The position numbers and the translations under genes were made by a program. From contig NZ_JACYMO010000006.1 of the NCBI RefSeq assembly GCF_014838825.1, positions 62,001-126,000 on the forward strand: DNA of 64,000 nucleotides. The letters run 5' to 3'. The stretch comes from Erwinia persicina (GTDB taxonomy: Bacteria > Pseudomonadota > Gammaproteobacteria > Enterobacterales > Enterobacteriaceae). Positions 3,084-64,000 of the stretch are shown here, one piece after another (the stretch's first letter is position 1; every line of letters starts with the position of its first letter). The notes under the pieces were generated by a model that was given only the letters and a program-made list of their open reading frames with translations, did no database searches and was not told the DNA's origin.

Positions 3084-3611
<528 letters not shown>

Positions 3612-56498: not shown

Positions 56499-56557
56499 AA
56501 TATGCCCTTAGGGTATAATCCCCGAAATTTTTGTACTACATCGCCTGGAATAGCCCA

Positions 56558-58138
56558 ATGACGACGGAAAATATTCATAAACATCGCATCCTGATCCTCG
56601 ATTTCGGTTCGCAGTATACGCAGCTGGTTGCCCGCCGTGTGCGTGAGCTGGGTGTCTACTGTGAACTGTGGGCGTGGGACGTCACCGAAGAGCAGATTCG
56701 TGGTTTTAACCCGAACGGCATTATCCTTTCCGGTGGCCCGGAAAGCACCACCGAGCACGACAGCCCGCGTGCGCCGGACTACGTGTTTAACGCAGGCGTC
56801 CCGGTACTGGGCGTGTGCTATGGCATGCAGACCATGGCAATGCAGCTGGGTGGCAAGGTGGAAGGCTCCAGCGAACGTGAATTTGGTTATGCCCAGGTTG
56901 AAGTACAGACCAACAGCGCGCTGATCCGGGACATCGAAGATGCGATCAGCCCGGCCGGTAAGCCGCTGCTGGACGTGTGGATGAGCCACGGCGACAAAGT
57001 CACGGCGATCCCGTCTGACTTCGTGACCGTTGCCAGCACCGACTCCTGCCCGTTTGCCATTATGGCCAACGAAGAGAAGCGCTTCTACGGCGTACAGTTC
57101 CACCCGGAAGTGACACACACCCGTCAGGGTCTGCGTCTGCTGGAGCGTTTCGTGCTGGATATCTGCCAGTGTGAAGCCCTGTGGACTCCGGCTAAAATCA
57201 TTGAAGATGCCGTTGAACGTCTGCGTGTGCAGGTCGGCAACGATAAAGTGATTCTCGGCCTGTCCGGCGGCGTTGACTCCTCTGTGACCGCAATGCTGCT
57301 GCACCGTGCGATTGGCGACCGTCTGACCTGCGTCTTTGTCGACAACGGCCTGCTGCGCCTGAACGAAGCCGAGCAGGTGATGGAGATGTTTGGTGACCAT
57401 TTCGGTCTGAATATCATCCATGTGGAAGGCGAAAAACGCTTCCTCGACGCACTGGCAGGCACAGATGAGCCGGAAGCCAAGCGTAAAATCATCGGCCGCG
57501 TCTTCGTTGAAGTCTTCGATGAACAAGCTCTGAAGCTGGAAGACGTGAAGTGGCTGGCCCAGGGAACCATCTACCCTGATGTGATTGAATCAGCCGCTTC
57601 TGCTACTGGCAAAGCGCACGTGATCAAATCGCACCACAACGTGGGCGGCCTGCCGAAAGAAATGAAGATGGGCCTGGTTGAACCACTGCGTGAGCTGTTT
57701 AAAGACGAAGTGCGTAAAATCGGTCTGGAGCTGGGCCTGCCACACGCCATGCTGTTCCGTCACCCGTTCCCGGGCCCGGGCCTGGGTGTGCGCGTACTGG
57801 GTGAAGTAAAGAAAGAGTACTGTGACCTGCTGCGTCGTGCCGATGCGATCTTCATTGAAGAGCTGCATAAAGCCGACCTGTACAACAAAGTCAGCCAGGC
57901 CTTTACCGTCTTCCTGCCAGTTCGTTCTGTCGGCGTGATGGGTGATGGCCGTAAGTACGACTGGGTAGTTTCCCTGCGTGCCGTCGAGACCATCGACTTT
58001 ATGACCGCACACTGGGCGCATCTGCCGTATGATTTCCTCGGCCGCGTATCCAACCGCATCATCAACGAAGTCGACGGGATTTCCCGTGTGGTTTACGATA
58101 TTTCAGGTAAACCACCGGCGACGATTGAGTGGGAATGA
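56558..58138 (+). CDS. guaA: GMP synthase (glutamine-hydrolysing) GuaA
   Basis: GuaA aminates XMP to GMP. The class I glutaminase domain (~8-205) has the nucleophile in GVCYGMQTM and the histidine/glutamate pair in QFHPEVTHT. The ATP pyrophosphatase domain has the P-loop [11 protein letters not shown], and the C-terminal dimerisation domain ends with PPATIEWE. The start [13 protein letters not shown] gives 526 residues as in E. coli (525); nine upstream codons are not family sequence. The 3' end is intact, though it is the known attachment target of P4-type islands and an integrase gene follows. Confidence 0.96.
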
Positions 58139-58446
58139 TTTCGCGTCTGGCAACAGCCTGCACGTAAAAGCAGTAAAGTACCTCTAAGCCCGCGTAACTG
58201 CGGGCTTTTTTGTTTTTGTGTCTGGCACTTTCTGGCAGCTGTTAGCAACGGGAAGCAGGGTTTTTTCAATGGAATTTTTGATGGTACTCTCTGGTTTTGA
58301 ATTCAGGTTTGAAAAAGTACCATGTGATAAATTCTGGTTGAGTTATGGTATTTGTTTTTTATAACTCAATTAAAAACAGATAGTTAAATAATTTTTCTGA
58401 ATTTTTTACAACATGGTATTTTTTGATAAAAGGAAAACAATAAACC
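58139..58446. other. guaA-integrase spacer with island boundary
   Basis: These 308 bases contain the guaA terminator (58186-58212) and then turn strongly AT-rich, giving the presumed promoter of the integrase. No gene is seen. By family knowledge of guaA-targeting integrases, the left attachment site should lie at the last bases of guaA (about 58115-58138). The matching right copy is not in the window, so its exact core cannot be fixed. Confidence 0.55.
58186..58212 (+). terminator. guaA terminator
   Basis: An eight-base perfect stem (AAGCCCGC / GCGGGCTT) with a six-base loop is followed by a T run, 47 bases after the guaA stop. Confidence 0.9.
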
Positions 58447-59093
58447 ATGTTGACTGACACCAGGCTGCGTCACCTTAAGCCGAAGGAGAAACTCTATAAA
58501 GTTAATGACCGTGATGGTCTGTATGTTGCGGTCACTCCGGCTGGAACTATTTCATTTCGTTATAACTATTCAATAAACGGAAGACAGGAGACTGTTACTT
58601 TTGGCCGCTATGGTGTTGGAGGGATCACGCTTGCAGAAGCGCGTGAACGGCTCAATGAAGCCAAAAAAATGGTTGCCAGTGGAATATCGCCTGCGAGGGA
58701 AAAAGCCAGAGATAAAGCGCGTATTAAAGATGCGGAGACTTTTGGTGCGTGGACTGAAAAATGGTTACGCGGTTATCAAATGGCTGAATCGACGCGTGAT
58801 ATGCGGCGTTCGGTATATCAAAGGGAGTTGAAGTCAAAATTTGCCCAGCAGAAACTTAGTGAGATTACACATGAAGACTTACGCGCATTAACCGATAACA
58901 TTGTCGAGAGAGGGGCACCAGCGACAGCTGTACACGCCAGAGAGATTGTATTGCAAGTCTATCGCTGGGCTATTGAGCGCGGTCAGAAGGTGGAGAATCC
59001 TGCTGATCTGGTACGGCCTGCAAGCATAGCGAAATTTGAGCCTCGAGACAGGGCATTGACGCCAATTGAAATTGGTCTGATGTATCGGTACAT
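58447..59093 (+). pseudogene. P4-type tyrosine integrase, truncated by IS insertion
   Basis: The N-terminal arm-binding domain (DUF4102, ~1-85, with DRDGLYVAVTPAGTISFRYNY) and the SAM-like core-binding domain (~100-195) are present. The protein is cut after ALTPIEIGLMYRYM, at the start of the catalytic domain. None of the R-H-R-Y catalytic residues remain; the full protein would be about 400 residues. The frame runs 23 codons into the insertion sequence and stops at 59163. The rest of the integrase is not found beyond the element, so insertion was accompanied or followed by deletion. The island can no longer excise with this enzyme. Confidence 0.9.
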
Positions 59094-59173
59094 GTGTAAG
59101 TATCTCTGCAAAACGAACCATTCACTTTTAGAGATCTTCCGACATACTGACTATATCCCCTGAGGAGATCGCT

Positions 59174-59440
59174 ATGCGCAAGATCCGATTCACCGAGCAC
59201 CAGATCATCGCCGTTCTGAAGTCCGTCGAAGCCGGACGGACCGTCAAAGATGTCTGCCGCGAGGCCGCTATATCCGAAGCCAGCTACTACAACTGGAAGG
59301 CGAAATATGGCGGGATGGAAGCCGCTGATATCAAAAAGATAAAAGATCTTGAAGACGAAAATCGTCGCCTGAAGCAGATGTTTGCCGACCTGAGCCTGGA
59401 ATGCCGGGCGCTGAAAGACGTTATCGAAAAAAAGCTTTAA
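59174..59440 (+). CDS. IS3-family OrfA (helix-turn-helix, leucine zipper)
   Basis: The 88-residue DNA-binding subunit of the transposase has a helix-turn-helix (FTEHQIIAVLKSVEAG, VCREAAISEASYYNWK) and a C-terminal leucine-zipper-like helix (KIKDLEDENRRLKQMF). GAGGAG precedes the ATG. Near its end the heptamer A AAA AAG (59428-59434) lies in the correct phase for -1 frameshifting into orfB, producing the OrfAB transposase. Confidence 0.9.
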   Translation: MRKIRFTEHQIIAVLKSVEAGRTVKDVCREAAISEASYYNWKAKYGGMEAADIKKIKDLEDENRRLKQMFADLSLECRALKDVIEKKL

Positions 59441-60285
59441 AACCAGCGATAAAGCGTGAGCTCGTCAGCTATCTGACCGCGCAGTTTACGATGAGCATAC
59501 GCCAGGCATGCAGGACGTTATCGCTGAGCAGGACGGTGTTTCGCTATCAACCGGACACGCGACGTGATGAACCGGTGATCCAGAGGCTGACTGAGGCGGC
59601 TGAACGCTATCCCCGCTACGGCTTTAAGAAGCTGTTCCAGGTGCTTCGCAGGCAGGGCCACGTCTGGAACCACAAGCGTGTACACCGGATTTACTGCCTG
59701 CTGAAACTGAATTTCCGGCGTAAGGGTAAACAACGTCTGCCGGTGCGTAATCCGGCTCCGCTGGCCACGCCGGAAGCACTTAACCAGAGCTGGTCGATTG
59801 ATTTTATGCACGACGCCCTGACATGTGGCAGACGCTTTCGGACCTTCAACGTCGTGGATGATTTTAACCGCGAGGCTCTGGCGATAGAAATTGACCTGAA
59901 TATTCCGGCGCAACGGGTTGTGCGGGTGCTGGACAGGATTGTGGCAAACCGTGGCTATCCGCTGAAGATGCGGATGGACAACGGGCCAGAGCTGGTCTCA
60001 CTGGCTCTGGCGCAATGGGCTGAGGAGCACGGTGTGTTGCTGGACTTTATTAAGCCGGGTAAGCCGACGCAGAACGCGTTTATCGAACGCTTTAACCGGA
60101 CGTACCGGACAGAAATCCTGGATTTTTATCTGTTCAGAACTCTGAACGAAGCACGGGAAATCACGGAGCGCTGGCTGACGGAATACAACAGTGAGCGGCC
60201 CCATGAATCCCTGAATAACCTGACGCCGGAAGAATATCGGATGATGGCTGAGAAACCGGAAATCTCAAAAAGTGTTTGGAACTAA
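59401..60285 (+). CDS. IS3-family OrfB transposase (DDE)
   Basis: The catalytic frame is -1 relative to orfA and is expressed mainly as an OrfAB fusion through the slippery heptamer at 59428-59434. The DDE triad is complete: D in WSIDFMHD, D in RMDNGPE, and E in AFIERFNRTYR, with exactly 35 residues between the second D and the E. The HTH_21 region (RYPRYGFKKLFQVLRRQG) is present. The frame is unbroken to NNLTPEEYRMMAEKPE, so the element may be active. The first in-frame ATG at 59401 is not necessarily a real start. Confidence 0.9.
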   Translation: MPGAERRYRKKALKPAIKRELVSYLTAQFTMSIRQACRTLSLSRTVFRYQPDTRRDEPVIQRLTEAAERYPRYGFKKLFQVLRRQGHVWNHKRVHRIYCLLKLNFRRKGKQRLPVRNPAPLATPEALNQSWSIDFMHDALTCGRRFRTFNVVDDFNREALAIEIDLNIPAQRVVRVLDRIVANRGYPLKMRMDNGPELVSLALAQWAEEHGVLLDFIKPGKPTQNAFIERFNRTYRTEILDFYLFRTLNEAREITERWLTEYNSERPHESLNNLTPEEYRMMAEKPEISKSVWN

Positions 60286-60410
60286 AACGGGTGTACTTAC
60301 ACTTATGGCCACCTCTCTTTAAAGCATTTAAAATGATCCTGAGGTGTTTAAAGCGTGGCAATTCAGTTAGGGATAATAGAACGAATGCGTTTTTGATTGA
60401 AATGTAGTTG

Positions 60411-60438
60411 CCAGATATTGGTCTAAACCAATATCTGG
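60411..60438. repeat. 12-base perfect inverted repeat beside the reverse transcriptase gene
   Basis: CCAGATATTGGT and its reverse complement are separated by four bases (CTAA). It lies 30 bases beyond the stop of the minus-strand reverse transcriptase gene. There is no T tract on either strand, so it is not a standard terminator. The 166 bases between IS and that stop contain no gene. Confidence 0.75.
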
Positions 60439-60468
60439 AACGTTTATAGCTTAACTATTCTTGAATCG

Positions 60469-63400
60469 TTACTCATTCAGTTCAAGCACTCGAATAAGAG
60501 GGTGACAGGTGGCCTCATGTCTTAGGCCTGCTCTAAGAAAGTTGAAACATTTTTTTGGAAGAGATTGATGCCTAGCCACTAAGTTGGTTTTATTTATCTC
60601 GTCATCTATAGAGGCTATTGCTTGTTTAAAAACCCGTATGGTATCAAGATGATTATACAGCTCCTGCATCGCCTCCAAGTCCCTTAGTGTACTTCGAATA
60701 GAGTCCTTTTCTTTTTCACCTATTTTGCTTGTTGATCCAAATAGTGCATCATCACCAATATCTTTTCCGCATATTATATTTACAGTTATATTTTTGTCGA
60801 TAAGTTCTTTTAATTCATTTTCAATGTTCTGTAGCGCTGTGGGCGTATATAAAATAGTGCATATATTTATTGATTTAAGTCCTTGTAGTGTGTTTTTTAA
60901 AGATTCTTGGCTCTCCTTTGGTATGTCAAAGTTATTCGCGTTTGGTCTAGGTTCGTTGACGGATAAGTAAAATTTGAGGGACGAAATTATCTGTGATCCT
61001 GTGATAATGTTGTCGGTGATTATCGTTGCATTATCTGCATTTTCTGAAATTCTCAATGGAGATAGGTTTTCGATATTTCGACCAATAGTTGTATATTTAA
61101 ATAAAATCCTGTGGGTTCCATTATAATCACCAACACGTTTTATTAAAAAAGGATTGGCATTTTTGTCATTCAATAGCTCTTCTACCTTTTTCGCGAAATT
61201 ATTTATGTCTTCCTCGCGCATAACTACATGAGCAGATATTAGTGTTACTAACATCTGGTGGAATTTCTTTGGAATCGCACTGAGCCATTTTACTAGGTTT
61301 TTTTGTGCGTCTGTTTTCGGAATGTCGCGATGCTGTGAGATAACATCAATGGCAGAATCGAAATTGTTTAAACAGACTATACTTTTTTCGTCGAAAATTG
61401 ATGCTGGGTAGCTTTTAGCTGGTACACCAGTGTTAGTTGTTTTTTCTGCTCTTTTTACTATGGAGTCGTATATTTTACTAATTGCACTGTTTATTGAGGC
61501 TATATATGTATCGGTTGCGTTTTCAAAAAAATAAATATGTTCTGATGAGCTTATGGCTACAGAGTGGCGAGCCTCAAATGGATGAATTTCATTAGTTGTC
61601 AAATTTATAAGCTTGATGTTTTTGAATTTGTAGTCTTTGTTATTAATGTTTAACGATTCGCTGAGAGGGGAAATTCTCGGATAAACACGTATGAATTTAT
61701 TTATATCTAATGCTGGAGCTTCTGAGTTGTGCAACTCAACTAAGCTGATAAGTCGCTGTTTGTACTGCTGAATATCTTTGTGGATATATAGAGCCAAAGA
61801 TGGGGTTACTTCTAAAGGTATTAATTTGAGTGAGACTTCTACAGTGTGTAGTAACTGTATAGGAGTGCCATCAAGCGGATTTGTTTTTTGGTCTATAGCA
61901 TATATATGGCGATCATTATTGGATTGATTAAATCGGTGGTATTGATTAACAAATTTATCAATTCTTCTTACTGTGTCTGTTTCTTTCAAGCATAGATACA
62001 GCGCAGCTGCTGCCGCAATGTCAAAATGAAAATTGTCTTCTACTATATTTGTTTCTTCGAGTTGAAGAGATAGGTGTTTTATAAATTCTACTATATTAAA
62101 ATCATCTTCTAGGTTGTCGATGTATTTTTCTTTAATCGGAAGTAGCCCGGTTTCATCAGGTTCTGAGCGGAAAAAACTTCTGATAAAGTTTTTCTGATTG
62201 TTTGCGAGTGTTTCAATGTTTTCATTTTTGTCTTCAAATAGAATTGTTCTCGAATTCATAAGTTCGTTGCTAAATGGAAGTGAAGTGCTGTAATTTAGAA
62301 TGCGATCGCGACAAAAAATATTTGGGTATGTATCTGAATTTTTACAGTAATCTATTATTTCGAGAAGTTTTTTTAGTTTTTGGGCGGTAGTTTTACCTGA
62401 AAGAGTGTCTGAAAGAGTGTTTAGATCTGCTGGGTTATATTCAACAATTACTTCGCTATAGCCATTATGCTCGCTTTCTGGGAGGCTAGATGGGTGAAAG
62501 TTGGTGGTGGGCTTCCTGAAAAGTATAGAGTTACCTTTTTTCAATATAATCGAACTGTTTTCAATTATGTTTTTCTCAAACCATGATTTATTGGTCGTTG
62601 GAAATAAAAGTGTTCCGTCTTTTTCGATAAGCCAGTTGTAAAAATTTGCCTTGTATTTAAGCTCTTCGAGAGCTTTTTTAATATCGGTGCTTTTTAAGTT
62701 GTTATCTTGGAATGTTATGTATATTAATAGTAGGTTGTGAAATTTTTCGAAAACTTTGCTTCTGTCATAAAGTCCTCTGAATATATTTCCGTCGACTATA
62801 GATGATATTATAAATAATGCTTTCTCTTCGCTGTAATCAATGCTATTGATTTTTTTGAACCAGTCTTGGGACTTGTGTGTGGTTTCCGTGTCGCATGTAT
62901 TGAATATATGTGCACAGTATTTCCATGCATTTATTAAAAGATCGATTGATTTATTTTTGTCGGAAATTGAGAAAAGGCAAAGCAAGTAATAGTATTTAGA
63001 TGTAGTTGATGGGGATTTTATTTCAGGTTGTGTGGATGTGGCCAGTTTACCATTAGCTTGGTCTGTCGAAAGTTTTGCGTAAAATGTAATTGCTAAGTTA
63101 TTTAATTCTTTATTTTTTATTTTCGGACTGGCGCAGAGAGGGTAAATAGCCTCAATAAAGTCTGGCAGCAATTTAATGTCATTTAGAGATGTGTTTAGCT
63201 GTTCAATTAGCTCTGTTGTTACGTTTATAGTGTCTACATCTGGTATGGATTTTAGACAGTTAATGATGGTGGTTGAAGAAATTTTTTTTAGATTGATTTT
63301 GGCATCGAACACCAATGCGAGATGTGCAAGATTCTCATGGGTTAATTCAGAGTCAGATAGCTTTTCTTCTATCTGAGTGACTAAATGTTTAAGCGCTTCA

Positions 63401-64000
63401 GTAGCCGACTTGCTTGACTCTAGCATAGTGATAAAGCAAGCGGTCAATACCTCTGATTGAAGATCATCGAATCGCTCTATCTTTTCTAATTCACTCCAGT
63501 TTTCTGGTGAGTCTAGAACAAAGTTGAACAAATGTTTGTAAAGGCTTCCTCTGCCAGCTCTGCCATTTAAGGTAGGCTCTACTTTTTCTCTTTTCAACGT
63601 GTCTAGTTGGGGCACGCCCGCTAAATGTGAGAAAATGAAGGCAAGGTCATTATCGCAGCTATCTGATTGAACAAGACTCATAAACTCAGTAATAGCCAGG
63701 TTTTTTTGTGTGTCGGTTGAGTCAGCAAAGTTTTTTGAGACTTTGTCTACAGCGTATTTGGATTGTGAACGATAACTGTTAAAATCTTCAGAGAAATTAC
63801 TTATTTTTGTTATTACTGTTTTATCATAGTTTATCTCTAGTCCGAGGAGTTCAAGTTCTGTATGTAATGTTTTAAGCGCAACATTTGCAGATTCTTCAGT
63901 AGGTGCTACGAAGAAAATATCATCTACGTACCGTTGGTATAGTTGTAATTCTTCCTTTTGAATTTTTGCGTCGAATTGTTGGTCAAGATTGTCAAGATAC
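60469..64000 (-). CDS. Giant defence-type reverse transcriptase with C-terminal PRTase-like domain (5' end outside window)
   Basis: The frame is open to the window edge; 1176 residues are visible and the N-terminus is missing. Numbered from the edge, residues ~20-65 are the end of a reverse transcriptase palm: YVDD at 24-27 (63919-63930) in RYVDDIFF, then LLGLEINYDKT at 51-61, the usual next motif. Residues ~65-890 look mainly helical, without a domain I can name. Residues ~895-1090 resemble a phosphoribosyltransferase fold: KWLSAIPKK helix region, then IITDNIITGSQI (~993-1004) like the PRPP loop. The gene is strongly AT-rich, unlike the chromosome before 58139. The length and accessory domains suit a defence-associated (UG/Abi-like) enzyme rather than a group II intron or retron. 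An ATG at 63681 is internal, not the start. Confidence 0.8.
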   Translation of the reverse strand, partial: YLDNLDQQFDAKIQKEELQLYQRYVDDIFFVAPTEESANVALKTLHTELELLGLEINYDKTVITKISNFSEDFNSYRSQSKYAVDKVSKNFADSTDTQKNLAITEFMSLVQSDSCDNDLAFIFSHLAGVPQLDTLKREKVEPTLNGRAGRGSLYKHLFNFVLDSPENWSELEKIERFDDLQSEVLTACFITMLESSKSATEALKHLVTQIEEKLSDSELTHENLAHLALVFDAKINLKKISSTTIINCLKSIPDVDTINVTTELIEQLNTSLNDIKLLPDFIEAIYPLCASPKIKNKELNNLAITFYAKLSTDQANGKLATSTQPEIKSPSTTSKYYYLLCLFSISDKNKSIDLLINAWKYCAHIFNTCDTETTHKSQDWFKKINSIDYSEEKALFIISSIVDGNIFRGLYDRSKVFEKFHNLLLIYITFQDNNLKSTDIKKALEELKYKANFYNWLIEKDGTLLFPTTNKSWFEKNIIENSSIILKKGNSILFRKPTTNFHPSSLPESEHNGYSEVIVEYNPADLNTLSDTLSGKTTAQKLKKLLEIIDYCKNSDTYPNIFCRDRILNYSTSLPFSNELMNSRTILFEDKNENIETLANNQKNFIRSFFRSEPDETGLLPIKEKYIDNLEDDFNIVEFIKHLSLQLEETNIVEDNFHFDIAAAAALYLCLKETDTVRRIDKFVNQYHRFNQSNNDRHIYAIDQKTNPLDGTPIQLLHTVEVSLKLIPLEVTPSLALYIHKDIQQYKQRLISLVELHNSEAPALDINKFIRVYPRISPLSESLNINNKDYKFKNIKLINLTTNEIHPFEARHSVAISSSEHIYFFENATDTYIASINSAISKIYDSIVKRAEKTTNTGVPAKSYPASIFDEKSIVCLNNFDSAIDVISQHRDIPKTDAQKNLVKWLSAIPKKFHQMLVTLISAHVVMREEDINNFAKKVEELLNDKNANPFLIKRVGDYNGTHRILFKYTTIGRNIENLSPLRISENADNATIITDNIITGSQIISSLKFYLSVNEPRPNANNFDIPKESQESLKNTLQGLKSINICTILYTPTALQNIENELKELIDKNITVNIICGKDIGDDALFGSTSKIGEKEKDSIRSTLRDLEAMQELYNHLDTIRVFKQAIASIDDEINKTNLVARHQSLPKKCFNFLRAGLRHEATCHPLIRVLELNE

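Follow-up and report, generated by a model that had tools for sequence, protein, structure and literature searches.

The window, a 64,000-nucleotide stretch of Erwinia persicina DNA (positions 62001-126000 of contig C6 in its own genome, G000), closes inside a large minus-strand gene. ORF inspection showed that the frame at 60469-63999 has no stop up to the window edge and spans 1,176 codons, in agreement with the first-pass annotation. With the sequence past position 64000 in hand (stretch L002, which runs past the window edge and whose positions 3439-3581 are window 59439-59581), the gene is completed: its ATG stands at C6:127799, outside the window by 1,799 bases, and its stop at C6:122469. 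It encodes a protein of 1,776 amino acids (P0001) with 0 internal stops, of which the window holds the 3' two thirds (residues 601-1776, 60469..64000, minus strand). The YVDD and LGLEINYDKT motifs noticed earlier are both present, YVDD at residues 624-627 (63919-63930, minus strand), and roughly 1,100 further residues follow them. The frame represents more than a chance opening because a family profile matches it from end to end and two homologues align along its whole length. We show below that this is a complete and well-preserved copy of a UG10_large gene.

Against the PADLOC reverse transcriptase (RT) profiles, residues 1-1775 matched positions 1-1687 of the 1,688 in RT_UG10_large (PDLC03746; E = 0, 1,920 bits), and RT_UG10_small (PDLC03747) matched residues 1-813 (361 bits). 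Among the 25 of 45 families listed, the best class other than UG10 was UG36 (E = 6.6e-26, 89 bits). For P0001, none of the seven NCBIfam models listed attained its cut-off. Judged by this profile ranking, the window-edge protein is a large-form member of UG10/DRT7, a class that already has a name. The earlier suggestion of a UG/DRT-type RT bearing a long C-terminal extension was right, and the extension is part of the known large form because the profile itself spans 1,688 positions. UG10 has been described before: PMC8934634 (2021) states that RTs of unknown class 10 carry a fused primase domain and gives AE_Prim_S_like/COG4951 for UG10 at 61%. PMC13314766 (2026) uses the double name DRT7/UG10 and refers to a preprint that reports cryo-EM structures together with polymerase activity. 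In PMC13213688 (2026), DRT7 is a fusion of an RT with a primase-polymerase, for which preprints offer evidence that it makes DNA rich in poly(A)/poly(T) with protein as both primer and template, and PMC13174585 (2026) cites three DRT7 preprints, one titled as a PrimPol-RT hybrid with a proofreading exonuclease.

The domain order fits this placement. Pfam detected an archaeo-eukaryotic primase (AEP-TOTE) at residues 31-187 (54.6 bits, cut-off 27) and RVT_1 at residues 509-664 (59.2 bits, cut-off 29.6), the C-terminal part of which lies inside the window (63808..63999, minus strand). A PDB profile search returned, for the N-terminus, a primase-polymerase-like chain of 7nqd (4e-25; entry title "TPR_REGION domain-containing protein"), an entry that we take to be the CRISPR-associated PrimPol; for the centre, it returned DRT, group II intron, retron and telomerase RTs. 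Residues D68, D70, H117, D154 and D526 and the YVDD motif, which have catalytic roles in the primase and RT families, are invariant in all three sequences compared (P0001, P0002 and P0003), so both polymerase sites look intact. Pfam reported nothing for the 700-residue middle piece of the extension. Residues about 749-968 (62896..63555, minus strand) are predicted to form an alpha-solenoid (model pLDDT 70-92 per ten residues), and residues about 994-1334 have a pLDDT under 50 in the predicted structure, where they have no assignable fold.

At the C-terminal end, residues about 1487-1692 (60724..61341, minus strand) may be phosphoribosyltransferase (PRTase)-like, a reading suggested by sub-threshold Pfam and structural matches. 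With the tails searched alone, PRTase-CE (PF24390) reached 26.9 bits in P0002 (E = 5.4e-6), just under its cut-off of 27 bits, and 16.4 bits in P0001; it did not match the P0003 tail, nor was it found by Pfam in any of the three full-length proteins. PRTases led the structural matches, at low Z, and Foldseek gave no match at E <= 0.001 for either model. An hhalign test of the tail as a PRTase gave a probability of 11.9% (E = 0.0025), and searching PDB sequences with the tail profile yielded nothing below E = 0.11. No PADLOC PRTase_III-A model matched any of the three tails at E <= 1; in that run five such models did match the PRTase-CE protein encoded at L009. Our own PRTase-CE HMM, built from seven of 11 PRTase-CE loci (L011, L017, L018 and L019 being left out, L011 with its first ATG inside the domain), found no domain in the three proteins, and shuffled sequences ranked among its ten best rows (3,000 shuffles). 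Alignment points to a candidate PRPP-loop-like segment, TDNIITGSQ (residues 1595-1603, 60991..61017, minus strand), whose first acidic residue is lost in all three sequences (T in P0001, T and S in the two homologues). A literature search under the name PRTase-CE found nothing, and one joining defense-associated reverse transcriptase with phosphoribosyltransferase found one paper, in which the PRTase mention is confined to a figure legend. Two other PRTase-CE loci extend beyond the domain: in L010:1492-3471 it is fused in a frame that starts, by eye, with an ATPase-like stretch, and the frame at L016:1408-2877 runs about 240 residues past it.

The gene lies downstream of the host gene guaA (56531..58138, plus strand), apparently a known island site. 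An 86-base repeat at the guaA 3' end (58124..58209, plus strand) has a second copy, 98.8% identical, at L002:10770-10855 beyond the window, where it closes the island, and the two are likely the attachment sites. Next to guaA are a truncated tyrosine integrase with arm-binding and central domains (58447..59163, plus strand), in which Pfam did not find the catalytic Phage_integrase domain (E <= 0.001), and an IS3-type transposase (59174..60285, plus strand) in two frames (59174-59440 and 59401-60285). In 1-kb windows, G+C is 33-39% inside the gene versus 57-58% towards guaA and 49-60% on the opposite side, and the earlier placement on an island stands. From 60302..64000 on to L002:10603 (i.e., L002:4302-10603, minus strand), the DNA is 99.7% identical to an element of E. 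coli MY203L1. Between the integrase and the downstream flank of the gene there is no match to that element, and the island here is therefore a remnant: a mobile element eroded by insertion sequences. Scans of the window and L002 for tRNAs found none. Upstream of the gene, an orphan IS3-type first transposase frame (L002:10266-10535) also occurs in the E. coli element, whose annotation calls it a frameshifted transposase. Rfam, run over L002:2000-11500, returned a single family, isrN (143.9 bits, minus strand, window 59439-59581, L002:3439-3581). This sole match is contained in the IS3-type transposase frame and gives no sign of a described RNA encoded alongside the gene; the isrN model itself probably describes IS sequence.

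The gene is rare. Among 5,426 complete genomes it was present in two, E. coli MY203L1 (duck) and NY1601 (chicken faeces), both matching its first 3,900 bases at 99.7%. The protein differs from the MY203L1 copy at 3 of 1,776 residues, and the MY203L1 and NY1601 records have one protein accession in common. The E. coli element, also at guaA, is longer and encodes a tyrosine recombinase, a RepA-family helicase, TraJ, TrbJ, TrbL and a HigA-type antitoxin; the Erwinia island lacks neighbours found in this version. A further gene of the E. coli element (L006:12549-14099), mostly absent from the window island, is called ComEC/Rec2-like in the annotation of one strain and hypothetical in that of the other; neither PADLOC (E <= 0.01) nor Pfam (E <= 0.001) matched it.

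Two more distant homologues align over the whole length: P0002 from genome G146 (1,777 aa, 45% identity), whose gene is flanked by a phage GPA-type replication protein and an integrase, and P0003 from Pseudoduganella aquatica (1,800 aa, 31% identity), whose gene adjoins a UG17 RT and a SLATT_5 protein. The latter pair (L005:13400-15393; UG17 at 7.3e-151, partner by PADLOC RTasSLATT and Pfam SLATT_5) places two DRT systems side by side. Matches to UG10_large at E <= 1e-50 occurred in 2 of 394 (own and G146), 1 of 369 (own), 1 of 398 (own), 1 of 152 (G146) and 1 of 384 (own) genomes; because these five unmerged sets overlap, they amount to two genomes in all. A pattern search of genome contigs matched 20 stretches, one of which encodes a relative. 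No relative was found in viral contigs in three scans, and phage records gave no match at E <= 1e-5. When the G146 gene was the query, only E. coli MY203L1 and NY1601 were found, at 64.7%. Five plasmid records matched, of which Peribacillus pG25-68 alone was scanned against PADLOC; the protein encoded there could be followed for its first 906 residues, as far as the record edge, and these align with positions 1-845 of RT_UG10_large. This gene of a Bacillota plasmid crosses the record start (L008:5953-8670 and L021) and is missing from the plasmid's gene table, and some 0.5 kb past the record edge the annotation has an IS3-family transposase.

The Erwinia gene belongs to the family, keeps the polymerase motifs, is open over its full length and sits on a mobile island. 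On this basis, with function carried over by family, we consider it probable that the product is an intact UG10_large (DRT7) anti-phage protein uniting in one chain a primase-polymerase, an RT, an alpha-solenoid and an extension perhaps ending in a PRTase-like domain. Going by review accounts of the DRT7 preprints, the two polymerase sites would, upon phage infection, jointly make A/T-rich duplex-like DNA, with protein serving as primer and template, and either the product or the act of making it would halt phage growth. With less support, the solenoid might organise the complex, and the C-terminal domain might bind a nucleotide or PRPP-like ligand and regulate the enzyme; a regulatory rather than catalytic role is suggested because the first acidic residue of the candidate loop is lost. 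The mechanism is transferred from DRT7 by family, and the proteins of the DRT7 preprints may be of the large or the small form.

How firmly this reading holds depends on what else could account for the locus. The first-pass annotation could not place the protein in a described class, and the visible part, the end of an RT domain followed by an extension whose 700-residue middle has no Pfam match, did invite that view. The RT_UG10_large profile matches the whole length with the same architecture (E = 0, against 6.6e-26 for the best non-UG10 class), which rules out an undescribed RT class, a reading that we now regard as scarcely conceivable; of the earlier expectation, membership of the UG/DRT group survived the PADLOC check and novelty did not. 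It is also very improbable that the gene is dead, a leftover on an island in decay. The truncated integrase and the missing neighbours of the E. coli version would suit such decay, but the frame is intact over 1,776 codons, its polymerase motifs are kept and it is nearly identical to the E. coli copy. Nor is it a degenerate gene lacking the upstream RT motifs, as had been entertained, given that the upstream part is intact, with the motif A aspartate D526 and the primase domain.

Other alternatives concern how an intact UG10_large protein would act. Several other DRT classes require an ncRNA, according to PMC12596737, and the polymerase pair could copy a co-encoded ncRNA, as in DRT2 or DRT9, rather than work without a nucleic-acid template. 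We find this very unlikely: Rfam, which covers described RNAs only, placed no family beside the gene, and reviews list DRT7 without an ncRNA. Unlikely, too, is that the C-terminal PRTase-like domain is a toxic effector, like the separate PRTase thought to be the effector of type III retrons, with the DNA product serving as a trigger only. PRTase is the effector type of type III-A retrons according to PMC12548924, the Pfam PRTase-CE member of L009 matches PADLOC PRTase_III-A and the P0002 tail comes close to PRTase-CE; against this, the acidic residue of the loop is lost in 3/3 sequences, none of the three tails matches PRTase_III-A, and the PRTase assignment is itself uncertain. We thus retain the protein-templated anti-phage polymerase as the preferred reading. 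A tentative extension of it, which we hold to be doubtful, is that large UG10/DRT7 proteins end in a degenerate PRTase-like domain through which a nucleotide or PRPP-like signal is sensed and the primase-RT pair gated. One chain would then hold the kind of domain that in type III retrons is a separate effector, an arrangement that would be unreported. If real, such a tail would hint at what triggers or restrains the large form, and mutating one loop would test it.

Taken against known systems, a named class now takes in what was a conspicuous unknown; the unusual DNA synthesis of this class is actively studied, and the placement brings near-identical E. coli copies and the homologues at 45% and 31% identity for comparison. 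The protein shares with RT_UG10_large its whole length and the order primase, RT, long extension, and no feature distinguishing it from that class was found; the possible PRTase-like tail is the sole less familiar point in a protein otherwise already known. Compared with RT_UG10_small, the primase and RT part is common to both, whereas that profile has 824 positions and does not include the roughly 960-residue extension. The primase-polymerase domain is likewise shared with CRISPR-associated PrimPol (PADLOC PrimPol, NCBIfam PrimPol_Msp and PDB 7nqd), although those models have no RT fusion and the window protein scores under the NCBIfam cut-off (84 versus 200 bits). With PRTase-CE (PF24390) and the retron type III-A PRTase, it may have in common a PRPP-loop-like segment and a predicted PRTase-like core. 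Unlike theirs, the window tail falls below the Pfam cut-off, has no PADLOC PRTase_III-A match and has lost the loop's first acidic residue; it is also fused to an RT, whereas the retron type III-A PRTase is a separate protein.
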